Of a stretch of 36,854 nucleotides of DNA, positions 3,703 to 36,322 are shown one piece after another. Source of the stretch: Psychrobium sp. (GTDB lineage Bacteria > Pseudomonadota > Gammaproteobacteria > Enterobacterales > Psychrobiaceae). Made by a program: the position numbers and the translations under genes. Every line of letters begins with the position of its first letter. The first letter of the stretch is position 1. The stretch spans positions 1 through 36,854 of the forward strand of contig JABSRV010000014.1 in NCBI GenBank assembly GCA_013214905.1, read 5' to 3'. The notes below the pieces were generated by a model. The model saw nothing but the letters and a program-made list of their open reading frames with translations. It searched no databases and had not been told where the DNA came from.

Positions 3703-3956
3703 AAGTAAAACCTTTCATTTTTGAATCGAATAACGGTTTATTCGAAGAGTGCTATGCCAAAGATATATGGGCAGATAACAAAACTGCAAGTGCCAATAAG
3801 ATATAATTCTTACAATTATAGCTTTTATAGGCATTTATTTAAAATGATTACACCCAAACATCAGCAAAGACTTGGCAGCGCTGACGATAACCGCTATTTT
3901 ATACAATATTACTGCGATGAGTTTTAAAAGAAACGATTACAAAAGGAATTAACTCA

Positions 3957-4658
3957 GTGTCCAATGAATTGGTGTCTGTTGTTTGTGTTACATGGTTTAT
4001 TATTTGTTGGGTTGGTTACACCACGTTTGCGCGTCGCCAAGCAAAGAAAACAATTTGCATTGCCTCGGTGATGCACCGCCATCGAATCTCATGGATGAAG
4101 CGCTTGTTATATCGCGAGCACCTAATCGCCGATACAGCATTATTGGCTAGCTTAGAGCGCCAAGTAACTTTTTTTGCTTCCACCACCATTTTAATATTGG
4201 CCGCCTTATTAACGTTACTTAGCTCCTCTGAGCGATTATTTAAATTGCTGTCTGATATGCCAGGTGCCTATCCCAGCACCATACTCGACGTTCAGATCCG
4301 CTTAATGTTAATGATCGCAATATTCATCTACGCATTTTTTACTTTTACATGGTCGATGCGCCAATACGGTTTTTGTTCGGTATTGATGGGAGCCTTCCCA
4401 AAAGCGAAAGAACATGAAGAGGTAAGCGAAGAAAATCAGCGTTACATTATCCACTTGGCAAAAATAATTGATCACGCTGGGCATAGTTACAACTATGGCT
4501 TACGTTCATATTATTTCGCTATGTCAACGTTGGCCTGGTTTATTCATCCTATAGCGTTTTTAATTGCCACCACCTCGGTAGTGGTAGTTTTATATAAACG
4601 AGAATTCCATTCCCATACATTGTTGGTGATGGTTGGCATTGATGTGTCCAAAAAGTAA
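3957..4658 (+). CDS. DUF599 family membrane protein
   Basis: A 233-residue integral membrane protein of unknown function that fits the DUF599 family. Helices lie near residues 5-24, 74-94, 115-138 and 190-214. A charged loop after helix 1 carries an RRQAKK segment and the W-x-Y pattern (WVGYTTFARR) common in this family. The start is GTG at 3957, with AAGGA about ten bases upstream. The gene diverges from ribA, with about 250 bases between them, and is followed after 34 bases by the lytic transglycosylase, so the two may share a transcript. The family call is good; no function can be assigned. Confidence 0.75.
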   Translation: MSNELVSVVCVTWFIICWVGYTTFARRQAKKTICIASVMHRHRISWMKRLLYREHLIADTALLASLERQVTFFASTTILILAALLTLLSSSERLFKLLSDMPGAYPSTILDVQIRLMLMIAIFIYAFFTFTWSMRQYGFCSVLMGAFPKAKEHEEVSEENQRYIIHLAKIIDHAGHSYNYGLRSYYFAMSTLAWFIHPIAFLIATTSVVVVLYKREFHSHTLLVMVGIDVSKK

Positions 4659-4692
4659 ATTTTTAATTTGTATTAAATTAAGGTATTAAAAA

Positions 4693-5721
4693 ATGAAGTT
4701 AGCAAAAATTTTAGCCACAAGCGCCATCGCGCTTTCTTTCAGTGGCATCAGTACACTTGCGTTGGCTGAGCAAAAAGAAACGCAAACATTTGAGCAATGG
4801 TTAGTTGAACTGCGCATTGAGGCAAAGGATAAAGGCTTTAGCGAACAGCTGATTAAAGACGCATTGTTGAATTTGAAACCGTACCCTAAAGCGATAAAAA
4901 GCGATCGCGCGCAGCCTGAATTTAAACGAACTTTTGTACAATACAGTACCAAACGTTTGTCGGCTTGGCGTATAAAGACCGGCCTGAAAATGCAAAAAGA
5001 ACATCAAGAGCTACTAGAAAAAGTGGCTGAAAAATACGGTGTTCAGCCTCGATTTATTCTGGCCTTTTGGGGACTTGAAACAAACTACGGCACATTTACC
5101 GGCAACAATGACATTATTCGCTCACTAGCAACGCTGGCATTTGATAAGCGTCGTGGTAAATATTTTCGCAAAGAATTATTCAACGCGCTAACCATTTTAA
5201 AAGAAGGCCATATCGAGCTGGACAAAATGAAGGGCTCTTGGAGTGGCGCAATGGGGCAAGGGCAATTTATGCCAAGCAGTTTTTTGCAATTTGCCCAAGA
5301 CTTTGACGGCGACGGTAAAAAGGACATCTGGCACAACCAAGCGGATGTATTTGCCTCTATCGCTTATTACTTAAGTCACTTTGGTTGGAACGATCAGCAA
5401 ACGTGGGGACGTCAGGTACATTTACCAGAAAATGCCAAGACATGGATCAATGACGTACAGGCCGCTAAACCAGAGAAAGGCTGTCGTGCATTACGTGGTC
5501 ACAGTGACAAGTTAACGCTAGCTAAATGGAATGAGCTTGGGGTGCGCCGCCTTAACAATAAGGACTTGCCGAGTGTAAACCTGACCGCGACATTGACCAC
5601 GCCTGATGGCTTACATGGACCAGCGTTTTTAACCTATGGTAATTTCCGTACAATTTTACGTTACAACTGCGCCAACAGTTATGCGGTTACCGTAGGACTG
5701 TTGTCAGACAAATTTAAATAA
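4693..5721 (+). CDS. MltB-type lytic murein transglycosylase (periplasmic)
   Basis: It cleaves the MurNAc-GlcNAc bond of peptidoglycan to give 1,6-anhydro-MurNAc ends. The cleavable signal peptide is residues 1-25 (ALA/EQ), without a lipobox cysteine, so unlike E. coli MltB it should be soluble. The catalytic glutamate is E129 in FWGLETNYG. Other SLT_2 hallmarks follow: GAMGQGQFMPSS and an EF-hand-like DFDGDGKKDIW, a calcium loop as in Slt35/MltB. It fits the non-lipoprotein MltB_2 family, and at 342 residues lacks the C-terminal peptidoglycan-binding domain some members carry. Start at 4693 behind AAGGT. An EamA transporter begins seven bases after its stop and is probably cotranscribed. Confidence 0.9.
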   Translation: MKLAKILATSAIALSFSGISTLALAEQKETQTFEQWLVELRIEAKDKGFSEQLIKDALLNLKPYPKAIKSDRAQPEFKRTFVQYSTKRLSAWRIKTGLKMQKEHQELLEKVAEKYGVQPRFILAFWGLETNYGTFTGNNDIIRSLATLAFDKRRGKYFRKELFNALTILKEGHIELDKMKGSWSGAMGQGQFMPSSFLQFAQDFDGDGKKDIWHNQADVFASIAYYLSHFGWNDQQTWGRQVHLPENAKTWINDVQAAKPEKGCRALRGHSDKLTLAKWNELGVRRLNNKDLPSVNLTATLTTPDGLHGPAFLTYGNFRTILRYNCANSYAVTVGLLSDKFK

Positions 5722-28562: not shown

Positions 28563-28647
28563 GCCGGTATGGTGAAATTGGTATACACGACGGATTCAAA
28601 ATCCGTTGCTTTCGAGCGTGGCGGTTCAAGTCCGCCTACCGGTACCA
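28563..28647 (+). tRNA. tRNA-Leu (anticodon CAA)
   Basis: 85 bases with encoded CCA. The acceptor arm gccggta/taccggt pairs with a G-U at the first position. The anticodon stem acgga/tccgt has loop ttcaaaa, giving CAA (reads UUG). A long variable arm and the T-arm ggcggttcaagtccgcc are present, as in class II leucine tRNAs. In enterobacteria the corresponding leuX gene is a known island integration site. A terminator follows at once. Confidence 0.95.
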
Positions 28648-28661
28648 TTTTATGTTTAAAT

Positions 28662-28686
28662 CAACCAACGAAAGTTGGTTTTTTTA
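28662..28686 (+). terminator. Terminator of tRNA-Leu
   Basis: The stem aaccaac/gttggtt closes on gaaa and is followed by TTTTT, 15 bases after the tRNA CCA end. Confidence 0.88.
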
Positions 28687-28801
28687 TGCCTGGAATATAG
28701 TGAAAGCCTTACAGTGTCTGATTAAATAAGTTATACCACTATATTTAATAGGCATTCTTTATGTAGGTTTTTATAGCCTGAAAACTCCCAAATCCATACC
28801 T

Positions 28802-28921
28802 CTTCCTGTCTATATCCTGTAAACCCATGTGCGGATTATGTGCGCATCTAGATCCTAGTTAATCCTAATCTTTACCATAGCCAACACTCCTAGCTGCTAA
28901 CTGCTCTGGTCTTTCTCCTGT
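28802..28921. repeat. Modular non-coding repeat, block 1, copy A
   Basis: About 120 bases aligning with 35478-35597 at roughly 70% by eye. Shared words include ccatgtg, ttaccatagccaa and tcctgtc-atatcc-gtaaa. A short upstream match (tgaggttttttttatgcctg at 35352 against a similar stretch at 28763) suggests the homology extends left with gaps. Confidence 0.65.
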
Positions 28922-29021
28922 TTTTTTCCGTGTAAATTAGTAGCTATGCCTTCTAGTAACGCCGCTTATAAGTCCCCAGCATTAGCCTAAGTTTGACGAA
29001 TCTAGGATTAGAAAAATATAT

Positions 29022-29053: not shown

Positions 29054-29138
29054 TATTCTTTCACATGGTTCTACTAATCAACGGGGTAGGCCATAGAATT
29101 AGGCTTAGTTCGCCAGAACAAGCAATCTGGATTGTGCT

Positions 29139-29690
29139 GTGAGCAAGGAGCGGCACAAAACGCGGTCACTTTAATAAACCTTAATGAATGCTAAAAATAA
29201 TTAAATATTTAAAATTCCTGTTCTATTATATTGTTAGCTCGCGCGGCGTTATTTTTGTTAAATCTGATTCCGATGGGCTCTTGAATTAAGTAGTAGCGTC
29301 AAAAGTTTTGTCTGCCGTGGACTTGTCTGGTGGCTTATATCGCTTTCTAGCAGTTGTGAACTGATGCTGTTTTTAATTAACTTCACGCTACAACTCTGCA
29401 CGAAAACTTGTCTATAGCCTCAAATTTTGGAGGTTGGCTTTTGGTTGTGCCTTGCCTTTGGTAAGTGCTGTTCAGTGTTGTCTAGGGTCGGTGATGTGTA
29501 CCTATAAAGCTAACTCGCCTGGTCATGGGGGCAGTTGATACTTTTAGGCTTAGTTGTTTTGACTACTTGAAGAGCGTGGCATCTTCGGTGCCTTAAATAT
29601 CGTAATCGATAAATTGTCTTACGCCTTATTTAATCGCGTTTTGCTGGATGTGTGTCACAAGCTCGTATGGGGATATATAACATTTACCAT
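29139..29690. repeat. Modular non-coding repeat, blocks 3-4, copy A
   Basis: Starts with gtgagcaagg. The first 101 bases (29139-29239) match 31283-31383 at identical length and about 70-75% identity, strongest at the right end (aaattcctgttctattatat), and finish at GTTAGCT. A second conserved stretch at 29648-29690, including cgtatggggatatat, matches 31728-31770. The sequence between has drifted and shows no reading frame. Confidence 0.7.
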
Positions 29691-31235: not shown

Positions 31236-31282
31236 TCTTATATTGGGTGCTGTTAGTCAGGACGTTCGTTTTTTGCTCGGCG

Positions 31283-31770
31283 GTGAGCAAGGAACGGCGC
31301 AAAGTGAATTCACGATAATTTGCCTTATTAAAGACTAAAAAATAAATAATATTAAAAATTCCTGTTCTATTATTTTGTTGGCTAAATGCGTCAAAATTTT
31401 TCGTAAAATGATCTGGTGTGGCGGTTCGCTGGGCTTAAGTTGCCAAATGGGCGCATGTGGTGGCTATCTATTGTGAAACCAATGAACTAGCGATTTTTCT
31501 TAATCGAGATCGCTGACGATTTACAAATAGTTTGGCATATTTTTGATGCGCGTTTCACTAAGGGCCTACTATTGAGTGGTGGTGTTCTGCGTTATATATG
31601 CGTTGTGATGTGCGATTATGGTTTGAAGCTCACTGCTCGTGTACTGGAACGCTGAAGCTGGATGTTGTGTAGTTGAGCATCGTAAATGGTAGGTAGTGTT
31701 TCCCTTTGTGCTGTTAAGAGTTTCATGGTGTGTGTCATTAGTCCGTATGGGGATATATGATATTTATCAC
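31283..31770. repeat. Modular non-coding repeat, blocks 3-4, copy B
   Basis: Matches copy A at both ends: 101 bases from gtgagcaagg to GTTGGCT (31283-31383), and 31728-31770 with ggtgtgtgtcatta and cgtatggggatatat. The middle is divergent and about 60 bases shorter than in copy A. No gene is visible here or in 31771-31905; the cassette core begins at 31906. Confidence 0.7.
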
Positions 31771-31905
31771 GGTGTGGTTTATTCAGTCTTAGATTAAATG
31801 AGTGTTTTCATCGTAACTAGTTGAAATTACGAGTATATTGAACTAGTATCATTTGAAATTAAATATCTGCGTTGCGGCATTATCGCGCAATCCGGATAAT
31901 ATACT

Positions 31906-31912
31906 GTTAGCT
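31906..31912 (+). other. Left core site of an integron-type cassette
   Basis: GTTAGCT fits the GTT-start of integron recombination cores and is the exact reverse complement of AGCTAAC, the first seven bases of the attC-like site at 32500. In a circular cassette these two would pair. The gene start is only 24 bases downstream, as is usual in cassettes. Confidence 0.65.
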
Positions 31913-31935
31913 GTTCATCATTGCTCGGAGATATC

Positions 31936-32505
31936 ATGGAAGAACATGAAGTGAAAATTTACTTTGGCGGAGATTTGACTAATTTGTATGAATTAGGTTG
32001 GATTTCGTCGGATTTAAGTGCATTGATCGATTTTACCGAATTAGTAGAATCTGGAGATCAAGAGAGAACAGAAAAATACTTTGGTGAAAAAGCTCGTGGG
32101 TTTAATCGTTATACTAAGGTAGTTGACAAACCTCATAAAAGACCTGAAATTGTTGATGTCAGAAAAGGTTCAGTTGAATTAGTTATAGCTGGTTGTAGTG
32201 TTGCAGTAGCTGTAATTATGCCCCTTGTTCAAATTGCGGTACAAAGGTATTTTAATCAAAGAGATGAAGAATTATCTTTTGAAATTAGCCCTCAGGATAC
32301 AAGTTTACAACGAATTATGAATACGTTTGCAAATGGTGAGTTTGGGCGAGGCTCAGAGGGTTTAGAATTGCTAATGTCAATTCTTCAACAAAGGAACTAC
32401 AACGTAACACTTCTTGCTCAAAATATTTATCTTGTTGAGCATGTTATTGAAAAATATTCACAGCGTATAATTAAAACAATTAAAAAGAACCGAAAAAACA
32501 GCTAA
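31936..32505 (+). CDS. Cassette-borne single-helix membrane protein, unknown function
   Basis: A 189-residue protein I cannot place. Residues 1-75 look soluble and charged (KIYFGGDLTNLYELGWISSD). One membrane helix lies at about 80-102 (VELVIAGCSVAVAVIMPLVQ), introduced by DVRKGS. A soluble C-terminal part of about 85 residues ends in a lysine-rich helix. I use ATG 31936, with GGAG seven bases upstream, instead of an in-frame TTG at 31921. The stop codon TAA lies inside the R'' box of the attC-like site, so gene and site form one compact unit. It is convergent with the ATPase gene. A membrane effector or immunity factor is only a guess. Confidence 0.75.
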   Translation: MEEHEVKIYFGGDLTNLYELGWISSDLSALIDFTELVESGDQERTEKYFGEKARGFNRYTKVVDKPHKRPEIVDVRKGSVELVIAGCSVAVAVIMPLVQIAVQRYFNQRDEELSFEISPQDTSLQRIMNTFANGEFGRGSEGLELLMSILQQRNYNVTLLAQNIYLVEHVIEKYSQRIIKTIKKNRKNS

Positions 32506-32554
32506 CAAATAAGAATAGGTGTCGCGTAGCCGACACCTTATTCGGGTGTTGGGC
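32500..32554 (+). other. attC-like recombination site (55 bp)
   Basis: R'' AGCTAAC (32500-32506) opens and R' GTTGGGC (32548-32554) closes the site. Between them lie a spacer aaataa, an imperfect stem gaataggtgtcg / cgacaccttattc with one extra base on one side, and a 5-6-base loop. The outer and inner stems, unpaired spacer and extrahelical base are the features of short attC sites, and the right end gggtGTTGGGC resembles those of classic resistance cassettes. No other convincing attC is visible in the window. Confidence 0.7.
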
Positions 32555-32684
32555 AAGCCCAGAAGCCCGCCTTATATAGTAAATTGAGATTCTTTGTTTG
32601 ATGGACACGCAGCCTGTGGGTAAACTCAAGCCGAGTGTGGTTAAAGTAAAGTGGTCAGGTCGCTTGTATAGGGATACTTATAAC

Positions 32685-34448
32685 CTACCCTGCCATGTAC
32701 TCAATCACAGAGCTTTTAATTTTTTTAACTCGAACATCCTGGATGTACTTCATTCGTACCTCATTCTCTTCTACATCATAAAGGTGACCAATATCTGCAA
32801 ACTTATCACTTAATCTATTTATTATTTTACTTGATAGCGAAAGATTAGAAAGACCGTGCGATCGCAATATTTTATAAAGGGATTCAGGCTCATCTTGTTG
32901 AATTTGAGAGCCACATTTAGGACAAAACTTAAAATTTTCATCAATAGTTCTAAAATCACATTTTGAATCTGTACAGCCAAACTCTGTGGATTCATTCAAT
33001 CGCTCAGAAATTTCTTTAATAAAAAGAGTTGTATCATAATAAGCCTGGTTATTCTCTATAGCGACAGACGTATTTTTTAATTCAGATATGCTCTTTAAAA
33101 CTAAATCGGTAAAAACTAAACTAGGGTTTAATGTTACGTAATAACCATATTTATGGTGACCTATGCTCTTCTTGCTATGATCAATTTTCACTATATTAGA
33201 GTAATCAAGAATAGAAAACATCTTTTCTAATTCATCATAAGCTGTAGTGGAAACAAAAAAACCAACTGATAACTTTCTCTTTTTTTCTATTTGCTTATTA
33301 TTCCATACTCGTAAGTTTGGAATGATTATTTCTTTCATCATATCTTCAGCTTCACTAATATGCTGTGAATATTTAATTAAGCGCTGTTTTAAAGTTTCAA
33401 ATTCCTTCCATTTAATATTAAAAACAGTACGAATAGTATTGATTAAAAACTGGACAGAAATATTAGATTGAAAACCCTTCGTATTTTCAATTTCATCAAT
33501 AATATGAAAGGCAAATCTTGGATTTCCATTACTACAGATACAAATAGTATCTATAATATCTTTATTAATAGTAAGTTTATTCCAGTACCCTTTATCAAAT
33601 TCTTGAATTCTTCTTTGCAATATATTTTTTACATATTTAATGTCTTCCGCACTATGCATATTCCATGAGACTTTTAGCTCTTTAGCATCCTGGCCTCGTT
33701 CAAAGTACTTTCCGTAATTAGTGATGCCTGGGTATACCGCAGCTTTACATGCAATTTTAGGATCTCTTAATGATTTAAAGAAAGTGAAAAATTTTTCCTG
33801 TTGTGAGTGAGAAAAGACATGAGCTGCTTCATCAAACAAGAATACAATTCGACTTAAATTGAAGTCATTAATGAGATTTTTCAAAAACTCTTTAAAATTC
33901 TGAGGGTTATCTAAAATGTTTGTGAGTTCTGTTGACGGTATTTTGTTTTTAAGATCTTGGTTTGTTTCAATATCTGCTTTTTCTAAGACCTTAATGTAGT
34001 CGTTCAATAAAGAGGAGTATTTATCGATATCCGTTTCAATGGAAGATCCAAAAATCACCTCTAGTCTCTTATTAAGCTTAGGAATGCAATCTGGTTTTAG
34101 TTCTTGTAATTTTTTTAATGTTTCTGAGAGGATTTTACCCATTGTCCACTGTAAAAAAGGATCTATGGAGTTATCGACTACAGTGATTCTCTCTATTCGA
34201 ATAGACTCTTCAAAGCTTACCCAAACAGGTAAAATACTATTTTTTCCGAACTCTTTAGTCGACTGCAACATTGCAGCCTTCATAAGCATTGTCTTTCCTA
34301 CACCACGACTTCCTTCTAAAAGATACTGCTCGGAATCTAAAAGCCTTGTAATTTTATCATCATTACGTGTTATGAAATACTTAGTTATTAACTCTTCAGT
34401 CAGACTTTCCGTGCGATCAAGTAAATAATCACCTAACGATTCCTTCAT
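32685..34448 (-). CDS. ORC/CDC6-like P-loop ATPase with zinc ribbon and HhH-like tail
   Basis: A 587-residue ATPase. Walker A is GSRGVGKT (46-53), Walker B IVFLFDE (201-207), and a sensor-2-like SNGNPR (306-311) resembles ORC/CDC6-type AAA proteins. A four-cysteine zinc ribbon follows (C492, C497, C509, C512; C-x4-C-x11-C-x2-C). The last 60 residues, ending DVRVKKIKSSVIEYMAG, look like a helix-hairpin-helix or SAM-like nucleic-acid-binding fold. Together these suggest ATP-driven action on DNA or RNA. The start ATG 34448 overlaps the stop of the preceding gene by 4 bases, so the two are translationally coupled. It is strongly A/T-rich, which points to transfer. An anti-phage role is inference from architecture and context. 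Confidence 0.78.
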   Translation of the reverse strand: MKESLGDYLLDRTESLTEELITKYFITRNDDKITRLLDSEQYLLEGSRGVGKTMLMKAAMLQSTKEFGKNSILPVWVSFEESIRIERITVVDNSIDPFLQWTMGKILSETLKKLQELKPDCIPKLNKRLEVIFGSSIETDIDKYSSLLNDYIKVLEKADIETNQDLKNKIPSTELTNILDNPQNFKEFLKNLINDFNLSRIVFLFDEAAHVFSHSQQEKFFTFFKSLRDPKIACKAAVYPGITNYGKYFERGQDAKELKVSWNMHSAEDIKYVKNILQRRIQEFDKGYWNKLTINKDIIDTICICSNGNPRFAFHIIDEIENTKGFQSNISVQFLINTIRTVFNIKWKEFETLKQRLIKYSQHISEAEDMMKEIIIPNLRVWNNKQIEKKRKLSVGFFVSTTAYDELEKMFSILDYSNIVKIDHSKKSIGHHKYGYYVTLNPSLVFTDLVLKSISELKNTSVAIENNQAYYDTTLFIKEISERLNESTEFGCTDSKCDFRTIDENFKFCPKCGSQIQQDEPESLYKILRSHGLSNLSLSSKIINRLSDKFADIGHLYDVEENEVRMKYIQDVRVKKIKSSVIEYMAG

Positions 34449-35134
34449 GATAATTCCTGTAATAATTGTGTTCTTGAGGCTAATTTATTAATTTCAAAAC
34501 TCGATCTATCATTAAATCTTAAGATGTACATTATCGCTATAATATTCATAATATTTAGGTAATGTGTTTCGAATTGTTTAAATTCAACTTTTTTATATGA
34601 TATTTTTAACGATTCTTTTTTAAACAATGTTTTATTTCTACCATGAACAACATCACATAATTTAGAATATTCAAGAGACAGAAATGAACTAATAGAGTCT
34701 TTATTTTTTTCTAAATCAACAGCACCATTATTAAAAGCTGTAATATATGAAGTCATATAAAATGAATCATCTCGAACTAAAGCGCTTACATATTTATTAG
34801 CTTTAGAGTTTTCATTTTTAGCGATATTCAATTCAATTTTATGATCATAAAAGTAGAACGAGTGGCATGCTAGCTCCAGAATATTTCTCAGGCCAGAAAG
34901 TGCTAATCGATTGTAACCCGATATAGATGCATGAATTACAGATATCACTTCTGAAATGATTTCATTCCAATAGAAGCTAGTATCACTATCAGATTCAGAG
35001 AACCTTTCGCCGATTTCCATAATAGAATTCAAAGCTTCAAGAATACCTGTGAGATCATTATCATGAAGAGTCTCAGTCTGAATCTTATTATTTTTCGCAA
35101 TTAAAGCTAACAGGGTATTTTTTGTGTATGACAT
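34445..35134 (-). CDS. All-alpha HEPN-like protein coupled to the ATPase
   Basis: A 229-residue, mostly helical protein. Two segments stand out: YNRLALSGLRNILELACHSF (74-93), with R83 and E87, and YSKLCDVVHGRN (156-167), with H164. Such paired helices with an R/E-rich helix and a late histidine are seen in HEPN-like and DUF5677-like proteins, but the canonical R-x4-6-H motif is not clear, so nuclease activity cannot be claimed. It is first in a two-gene unit, and its stop overlaps the ATPase start in ATGA. Start at 35134. The promoter should lie within 35135-35250. It is strongly A/T-rich. Confidence 0.65.
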   Translation of the reverse strand: MSYTKNTLLALIAKNNKIQTETLHDNDLTGILEALNSIMEIGERFSESDSDTSFYWNEIISEVISVIHASISGYNRLALSGLRNILELACHSFYFYDHKIELNIAKNENSKANKYVSALVRDDSFYMTSYITAFNNGAVDLEKNKDSISSFLSLEYSKLCDVVHGRNKTLFKKESLKISYKKVEFKQFETHYLNIMNIIAIMYILRFNDRSSFEINKLASRTQLLQELS

Positions 35135-35248
35135 ATCAAATATCAGTTAATTCAAGTAGATGTAAGCTAAATAAAAACATTCAAAAAGTCAATCTATGAT
35201 ATATATTTAGATAGTCCCTCCAGCAGTGTCAGGAACAGCAAAGATGAA

Positions 35249-35342
35249 ACACGCATAAAAATATAGCTAATAAATAACGAGTTAATGAATACGTTAGAAC
35301 ACTTCAACCAAATAGCGATTTATATCATTAGGGTTAGCAAAT
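35249..35342. repeat. 94-bp direct repeat, copy 1
   Basis: From acacgcataaaaat to gtttagcaaat-like gttagcaaat. It aligns with 36228-36322 in the same orientation, with about 12 mismatches by eye. The two copies lie about 980 bases apart, on either side of block 1 copy C and a possible gene remnant. Confidence 0.85.
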
Positions 35343-35477
35343 CTCACATCGTTGAGGTTTTTTTTATGCCTGAAACTTAGAGAATCCCAGTTAGAGCTTG
35401 TCTATTATCGCGGTGCAACTATCATAACATCGTGAAATGCAGTTCAACACAGCCTAAAAGCGCCTCACGCCATACAA

Positions 35478-35597
35478 CCTCCTGTCCATATCCGGTAAAA
35501 CCATGTGTTGATGAAGTACGTCATTAGATTCTAGCCAATCCTATGCATTACCATAGCCAATACGGCTAGCCGTTAGCTCCTCTGGTCGTCCTCCGGC
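35478..35597. repeat. Modular non-coding repeat, block 1, copy C
   Basis: Aligns with 28802-28921 (words tcctgtc, ccatgtg, ttaccatagccaa, ctctggtc). It is followed at 35634-35690 by a decayed version of the copy-B hairpin region (tcgaagtggagtctta, gggtgt). Blocks 3 and 4 are absent here. The surrounding 35343-35990 shows no gene, only a run of ten A near 35749-35758. Confidence 0.6.
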
Positions 35598-35992
35598 ACT
35601 TTTAGAGTATATGAGCGTGGCAAGAAGAGTGCCCCCCCAAATTTGAATGGCATCGAAGTGGAGTCTTAACTGGGTGTCGGAAAGCGGGAACAGTACGGCA
35701 AGTCGCTAGATCTTTGCTGAACAATTCTGTTGATAAAAGGTCGTGGGTAAAAAAAAAATAGGCTTGGCGAATTTGTCACTGAGTTTTTTGTTTTCTTGTC
35801 ATGGACGTGGATTAGAGGTGGCGAGATGCTGCCGAGTAATGAACCCCTGATGATCAACTGTAAACATGCTGACTATCAGGAGGTTTTTCTATTATTTGTA
35901 ATAATAATCTCGCTTTTTTTACATGGGGTGAGTATCCCAGTTAATAAATTAGTTAGAGCCTTTCATTTAGGATATGGTTAAGTATTCACCAT

Positions 35993-36235
35993 TTAACGGT
36001 AATACACTCTGCGAATAGCAGTTTTCAATTTATTGACAATCTCTTGAGATCCCCAGTTATTTTTACCTCTCAAGCTTTTCTTAAAATAAACCTTTAATTG
36101 ACGGAGCTTAGGAAACTCATCATCACTATCAACGACTTTGTCTATTGCTATAACAAGTTCATAGCAACGAACTCTTGTGTTAAGACAAGGGTTTTGGATA
36201 ACTATTTCAGTAAGAAGAAAAGAGGGGACACGCAT
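35993..36235 (-). pseudogene. Short ORF, possibly a gene remnant
   Basis: An 80-codon frame whose second half (CYELVIAIDKVVDSDDEFPKL, then YFKKSL...WGSQEIVNKLKTAI) has the charge and helix pattern of real protein. Its start codon lies inside the 94-bp direct repeat, there is no clear ribosome site, and the product is not recognised. It is more likely the 3' end of a broken gene than an intact one. Confidence 0.3.
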
Positions 36236-36322
36236 AAAAATCTAGCTAATAAATAACTAGTTAATGAGTACGTTAGATTTCTCCAATCAAATAGCGATTT
36301 ATACTATTTGGTTTAGCAAATG
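36228..36322. repeat. 94-bp direct repeat, copy 2
   Basis: The partner of 35249-35342. It includes tagctaataaataactagtt and caaatagcgatttata. A shorter, inverted relative of its outer end (acgtgtcccatctttct) occurs near 36393-36410. The following 36323-36766 contains no credible gene. Confidence 0.85.

Follow-up and report, generated by a model that had tools for sequence, protein, structure and literature searches.

Positions 31906–32554 of the window, i.e. of the whole 36,854-nt stretch of DNA analysed here (the whole of contig C46, JABSRV010000014.1, in a 447-contig, 93.6% complete draft genome of Psychrobium sp.), most probably belong to a decayed integron (rough probability 0.86), consisting of an attI site and one cassette, in which the integrase gene intI has been lost and one end of an IS91-type element that targets attC sites has patched the attC. 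The preliminary description of the locus proposed an integron-type cassette lacking an integrase, either inserted at a secondary site or surviving as the only remnant of an array. The cassette type is borne out and the survivor reading comes close to the truth, while insertion at a secondary site is contradicted by the attI-type left flank.

The limits of the cassette agree with those first described. On the forward strand, the 5′ core site GTTAGCT (31906–31912, crossover G|TT), taken as the attI/cassette junction from its sequence and its alignment to other attI loci, is the exact reverse complement (7/7 nt) of the R″ core AGCTAAC at 32500–32506, so that the cassette carries its own 5′ core complementary to R″ at the 3′ end, as integron cassettes do. 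A GGAG resembling a ribosome-binding site (31927–31930) precedes an open reading frame of 189 codons (31936–32505, forward strand), whose ATG at 31936 lies 24 bases past the left core and whose TAA (32503–32505) sits within R″; the site closes with an R′ box, GTTGGGC, at 32548–32554. The 189-aa ORF is the cargo gene. Its product gave no Pfam match above the cut-off and none in NCBIfam or PADLOC, and no relative of it was found among the order's 393 remaining genomes (394 with its own), in the other eight of the nine genomes of the genus, or among the plasmids and viral contigs searched; the structure predicted from the single sequence was unusable (pLDDT 35.6).

The site at 32500–32554 has the shape of an attC. 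Folding of the bottom strand as single-stranded DNA reproduces the second stem and the extrahelical base noted earlier, with an inner stem carrying that base and an outer stem (−9.5 kcal/mol, z −3.44, equalled by 0/200 shuffles); the top strand of the same site folds with a z of −2.80, and two of 200 shuffles were as good. Six sites in the window combine NNNYAAC, an inner stem (eight perfect pairs, one bulge allowed) and GTTR, and a search 150–1600 bp upstream of each for an exact 7-nt core succeeded for one of the six, namely this one. Against it, a simple home-made attC grammar, which ignores the upstream core and carries no calibrated error rate, gives the site 10.5, which puts it at rank 44 among the window's 712 candidates; the cause is the weak pairing between R″ and R′ in the integrated state, which also counts against the main reading. 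On the same scale eight native-like attCs obtain 9.0–15.0 and the intact aadA1 attC 14.5, and the site falls within the native-like range. A scan at Rfam gathering thresholds matched tRNA-Leu alone. The site is not the native attC of one complete cassette (31907–32548), as had been supposed, since an IS91-family end follows R″ and runs past R′ to about 32671. A native folded attC of the form R″-L″-L′-R′ is therefore lacking: judged from sequence comparison, the site is a chimera in which R″, the sole surviving part of the original attC, comes from the cassette and the rest from an IS91-family element, with an attC-like fold. In terms of the SALIN criterion, the window holds one attC-like site, a chimeric one, and no intI.

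The left flank is recurrent in the genus. By homology and by intI linkage in relatives, an attI-type site is attributed to 31757–31905 (forward strand), its best conserved part ending ..GGATAATATACT at 31905. Segment 31700–31930 was searched in nine genomes of the genus and found matches in five, that of the window included. Besides the window itself there were 12 matches, 10 of which span the stretch immediately before 31906, and nearly all of these finish in ..GGATAATATACT, or in a version of it, right at the GTT core (L048 has ATT). Positions 31813–31909 are 83–85% identical to three loci of genome G005, and about the last 35 bp of the site match further loci in G000 (the genome of the window), G004, G005, G006 and G007; the part at 31757–31812 aligns weakly by eye, which counts against the attI reading. 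With a pattern composed after the flank alignment had been viewed, 12 attI loci were located, at which the end of about 35 bp (97 bp in the three G005 loci) recurs, ending ..ATAATATACT|GTT or near it. An exact complement of the core follows 279–1195 bp downstream in eight of the 12, window included, as expected of a first cassette, a count that stands without a chance control.

The linkage of this attI family to intI is directly seen in relatives. A divergent intI scoring over the cut-off starts 323 bp from the attI in G004:C14 and 332 bp from it in G005:C117, and reading upstream of intI in G002:C8 disclosed a diverged attI copy in the equivalent place beside a divergent intI. The three integrases are 70–75% identical to one another and 47–49% identical to the enzyme encoded on contig C154 of the window's own genome. 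In the stretches fetched around the 12 attI loci, IntI similarity is absent in nine, intI is present in two and a broken intI in one. G006:C2 and G002:C8 share a neighbour gene, which lies ∼0.5 kb from attI in the former versus ∼3.1 kb in the latter; no IntI was found at the G006:C2 locus, where the ∼2.5 kb shorter distance would fit a deletion of intI. At an attG or other secondary site the flank would not be an integron site; here it is attI-type sequence. Since the left flank belongs to an intI-linked attI family, the left boundary is no random secondary site, and from the recurrence of the family and its intI linkage the cassette appears to sit at the entry site of a former integron.

Inside the attI module, a promoter-like TTGAAA-N17-TAGTAT (31821–31849, forward strand, 9/12 match) is a candidate Pc, and TTGACA occupies this position in several aligned copies, as judged by eye; promoter patterns are not enriched in the attI region (three found, shuffle mean 3.8), and activity of the candidate is presumed. 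A second attI-type site without intI is present in the same genome at about position 3464 of contig C55 (L019), with several ORFs after it; this contig also shows a broken IS91-type end at 4779 and, by eye, phage-like ORFs beyond. In G006, three attI-led cassette loci (L109, L110 and L111) occur in a genome with no integron integrase over the cut-off.

Next to the attI of the window, where a complete integron would have its intI, the gene has been lost, and no remnant of it was detected within the window (best E 0.37). The earlier statement that intI is missing holds for the window and fails for the genome, in which the proposed look-up disclosed an integron integrase on C154 (402.6 bits, cut-off 265) and a second, split one on C397, truncated by the contig end. 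A type-A intI may be present elsewhere in the draft genome, which counts against the best explanation.

Several other features of the surroundings deserve mention. Stretches just after the tRNA-Leu gene (28563–28647) recur ∼6.68 kb further on (28679–28927 and 35359–35603, 73–85% identity); these repeats frame the region of the integron remnant and are possible edges of an island. A 104-nt direct repeat (29136–29239 and 31280–31383, 76%) has copies ending ..CTATTATNTTGTTRGCT, another core-like heptamer of the form GTTRGCT, and a second short repeat (29649–29689 and 31729–31769) has a similar spacing. A 106-nt repeat (35237–35342 and 36216–36321, 85% identity) is mostly intergenic. On the reverse strand, 32685–35134 holds two overlapping genes, encoding a 587-aa ORC-CDC6-like AAA ATPase (PF24389, 43.9 bits, cut-off 27) and a 229-aa protein that matched nothing; PADLOC gave a weak PtuA match (E 0.003) for the ATPase and nothing further for the pair.

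The right-hand site leads to the mobile element. The remnant of an IS91-family ori (3′) end, reversed relative to the cassette, occupies 32507–32671 on the reverse strand, its start being ambiguous by a few bases and its far end approximate. Its hairpin (32513–32543, arms 32513–32524 and 32531–32543, one extrahelical base), supported by folding and covariation, plays the part of L″/L′, and the R′-like box GTTGGGC at 32548–32554 belongs to it as well, the corresponding heptamer being GTTGGAC or GTTGAAC in 63 of the 83 copies described below. Four further places in the same genome, each behind a different sequence, match positions 32502–32552 with 88–98% identity across 43–51 bp. On C95 and C147 the similarity extends past R′ to a reversed IS91-family transposase gene (tnpA), and on C74 (L018) there is only a degenerate piece of tnpA (residues 277–353). 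The transposases of the intact C95 and L056 copies are Y2/HUH enzymes with the IS91 zinc domain (PF04986, PF14319). On C95 a gene for a 304-aa integrase-like protein precedes tnpA, and its counterpart in L056 encodes a protein of the phage integrase family. In the window, similarity to the IS runs to ∼32671, ∼117 bp beyond R′, and then stops; tnpA (best E 3.8), with its HUH and zinc domains, and the IS 5′ end are gone. The empty site ...ataatatactGTTGGGCaagc put forward earlier has to be abandoned: GTTGGGCAAGCCC is IS sequence, and no relative is therefore expected to carry the ...ataatatactGTTGGGCaagc junction. On contig C147 (L017), a 420-aa ORF (3723–4985) near the IS91-type insertion looks by eye like an IS110/IS1111-type transposase, and some members of that type are described as targeting attC in the accessible text of PMC9229058.

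A covariance model, R1, built from 28 copies of the IS end, none of them from this genome, matches 32500–32558 of the window with 83.4 bits (E 2e-20), which places in the window the ori end and hairpin common to intact copies; the intact aadA1 attC (L199) gives no match to R1 at E 1 or better. Among these 28 copies, both sides have changed in six of the 17 hairpin pairs (18 cells), a score not attained in any of 500 shuffles, and sliding the pairing abolishes the covariation signal.

Across the order, 53 of the 394 genomes searched contain the IS-end pattern, and a reversed control pattern gave one match; regions were fetched from 28 of the 48 matched genomes outside the genus. The pattern with at most two substitutions yielded 83 copies on the fetched loci (28 genomes of other genera, the genus itself and four plasmid records), a set that misses known copies such as that on C74 and in which several copies are near-identical or lie in one array. 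With one row containing N dropped, 82 copies remain. In 80 of these the base preceding AAC is T; conservation of AAC itself is partly built in because the search pattern contains it. The copy's own 7-nt core is found 150–1600 bp upstream in 55 of the 82, compared with a mean of 16.4% when cores are borrowed from other copies (maximum 30.3% across 1000 shuffles); 27 of the 82, on the other hand, have no own core in that range. Four further plasmid copies (L195–L198), outside this count, have it in two cases (L195 and L196). Similarity to tnpA lies downstream in 47 of the 83 copies, and its reversed orientation in 47/47 reflects the element's own layout and thus gives no independent evidence.

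The far end, GGCTTCGTTCAAC or a close variant, was found in 36 copies, all with GTTCAAC or a near variant, which the far-end pattern itself demands; 35 of the 36 right flanks are distinct. Setting aside L056 and one copy with N leaves 34 sites that can be joined across the element, and 27 of them resume with AAG. A GCGTT-type end is reached in 31 of the 34 with a permissive pattern that has no control, and the inner-stem score is ≥7 in 15 of the 34 versus 4.1% of 680 random joins, the mean score of which is distorted by the default of −99 given where GTTR is absent. By eye, most of the 34 right flanks are the remainder of a long attC. Wherever both flanks are readable, the element in most cases separates an attC's R″ from its L″. 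Exceptions, with an ori end lacking an attC core or remainder, are C74 (L018), L049, L050, L053 and one L179 copy, L184 being doubtful; L018 and L049 have no R″ core, and L053 and the L179 copy have a non-attC flank. A plain pair of sites is in aadA1 cassettes. In the E. coli plasmid NZ_LT985243 (L056), whose copy lies in a class 1 integron, the aadA1 attC reads GTCTAAC, then ∼2.3 kb of IS, then AATTCGTTCAAG..GTTAGAT, and the uninterrupted aadA1 attC of NZ_CP023143 (L199) is the intact partner of this occupied site. The junctions share AAC or AACAA, so a short target duplication looks the same as shared ends. In a class-wide search, a stricter pattern matched one of 369 genomes, that of the window, probably on account of the few genomes of the order in that sample. 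The IS-end module was not found in phages, and the E. coli-type module occurs among plasmids only in NZ_LT985243's own record and in none of the E. coli genomes.

The decayed integron has to be weighed against other explanations of the locus. That of the preliminary description, a complete cassette with a native attC inserted at a secondary chromosomal site by an IntI acting in trans, draws on the exact core matches at both ends, on the IntI found elsewhere in the genome and on the SALINs (solitary cassettes) described in Shewanella in the accessible text of PMC9229058. It is nevertheless very improbable, the left flank being a recurrent attI-type sequence that two relatives carry next to intI and a third likewise in a diverged version, and the right site, together with ∼117 bp past R′, being IS91-type sequence. 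It is hardly credible, too, that the cassettes natively have this short type of attC and that the IS inserts just past R′, at CAAG, outside the attC. The module does look like an attC and ACAAGCC surrounds the R′ end in most copies, but the same module is found on unrelated cassettes whose preceding attCs are long and different, the E. coli module interrupts the aadA1 attC, the second half of which comes after the IS, and the remainder of a long attC stands beyond the far end in most of the 34 sites. A rather unlikely explanation concerns the left boundary, where attI loci without intI could be working satellite arrays, with attI and promoter copied around the genome and served in trans by the resident IntI. 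For nine of the 12 attI loci the fetched stretch is devoid of IntI similarity, several intI-less loci are trailed by more than one core, and G000, G005 and G007 each combine an intI over the cut-off with intI-less attI loci, as such arrays would have it. Yet G006, a 100% complete genome in nine contigs, has no IntI over the cut-off, and nothing found there therefore serves its three attI loci; one syntenic locus looks like an intI deletion; and the known IntIs of G000 are just 44–50% identical to the type-A enzymes.

For the decayed integron, the following order of events is proposed. A type-A attI with a promoter-like sequence would have received the cassette by IntI-mediated attI × attC recombination. 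Later, an IS91-family element encoding an HUH TnpA and an accessory tyrosine recombinase would have entered the attC, separating R″ from L″ and with its ori end abutting R″. The bulk of this element would next have been lost, taking the rest of the original attC with it and leaving ∼165 bp of ori end. This end supplies a hairpin, one extrahelical base and a box of GTTGRAC type, so that an attC-shaped site still trails the cassette, and the patched site may continue to recombine. The gene is absent from every other genome searched and the upstream flank occurs nowhere else in the genus as this locus; neither insertion is therefore observed here as an empty site.

With the insertion, the R′ position comes to hold GTTGAAC or GTTGGAC from the IS end (63/83 copies), and the far end offers GTTCAAC as a new R″; two attC-shaped sites thus arise from one attC, the element between them gaining cassette boundaries. 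The HUH transposase presumably recognises the folded bottom strand of the attC, as the folded attC resembles the element's own ori end (a hairpin, a few bases and GTTR), and IntI would be able to use the new IS-derived sites. The odds are about even that a widespread IS91-type subgroup has such a double mobility, in which the HUH enzyme inserts at a folded attC, two working attCs result and the element becomes an IntI-mobile cassette. The upstream cassette would then stay mobile, IntI could excise, shuffle and export the element, and decayed insertions may seed new attC sequences, of which the window would be an example. The lack of an excision scar speaks against dual mobility: GTTGRAC is missing from 20 of the 83 copies, and inspection of these by eye gave no convincing module with another cassette straight behind it; the best candidate, L194, has no matching R″ downstream. 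The outer pairing in the chimera, confined to about TAACA/TGTTG, counts against use by IntI. Both observations suit a somewhat less likely alternative, in which the likeness of IS end and attC is coincidental, any IS91-type ori having an end hairpin and the GTT boxes being meaningless to IntI. IS91-family ends do carry hairpins, which fits this alternative as well. Its difficulty lies in the GTTGAAC/GTTGGAC at the place of R′ and the far-end GTTCAAC of 36 copies, which form matched cassette boundaries, and in ISShvi3, credited with a new cassette structure in the accessible text of PMC9229058.

The integron remnant itself is modest, and the interesting part is the element family. Should the patched sites recombine, the element would be a transposon that mends the attC it has disrupted and acquires another route of mobility; it would also be a possible source of new attC sequences, the origin of which is, to our knowledge, an open question. 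Integron searches read a short attC without an integrase as a solitary cassette; as such a site is here the end of a transposon, IS91 ends may account for some of the SALINs and CALINs called in marine gammaproteobacteria. The attI-type sequence offers a handle for finding integrons that have lost intI, since IntegronFinder, according to the accessible text of PMC9024848, does not detect attI outside class 1.

The locus and the element resemble several known systems. Other IS91 members carry an extra tyrosine-recombinase gene, and we know of no description of IS1111-attC elements or group IIC-attC introns as rebuilding two attC-like sites. These elements and introns also target integron attC sites (PMC9229058, accessible text), using other enzymes. 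The ISCR elements of class 1 integrons are likewise rolling-circle elements of IS91 type linked to integrons (PMC8876359, accessible text), and attG sites are named in the part of PMC12901181 available. SALINs and CALINs (a single attC, or a cluster of attCs, lacking an integron integrase) are established entities in the accessible texts of PMC9229058 and PMC9024848; the window shares with them a cassette without an adjoining intI and differs in keeping an attI with a promoter-like sequence and in having a non-native attC. ISShvi3, likened by description and also named in PMC4744853, and other IS91-family elements with a tyrosine recombinase share the Y2/HUH transposase, the IS91 zinc domain and the extra integrase-like gene. 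In the accessible literature outside subscription journals and ISfinder, the combination of attC targeting with apparent rebuilding of the site by an IS comes down to a single sentence on one element, ISShvi3, and the accessible text of the paper that describes it (PMC9229058) states that no IS was detected interrupting attC sites. Here, in contrast, the IS91-type element, which looks able to rebuild attC-like sites, lies within the attC in several genera, with R″ on one side and L″ on the other.
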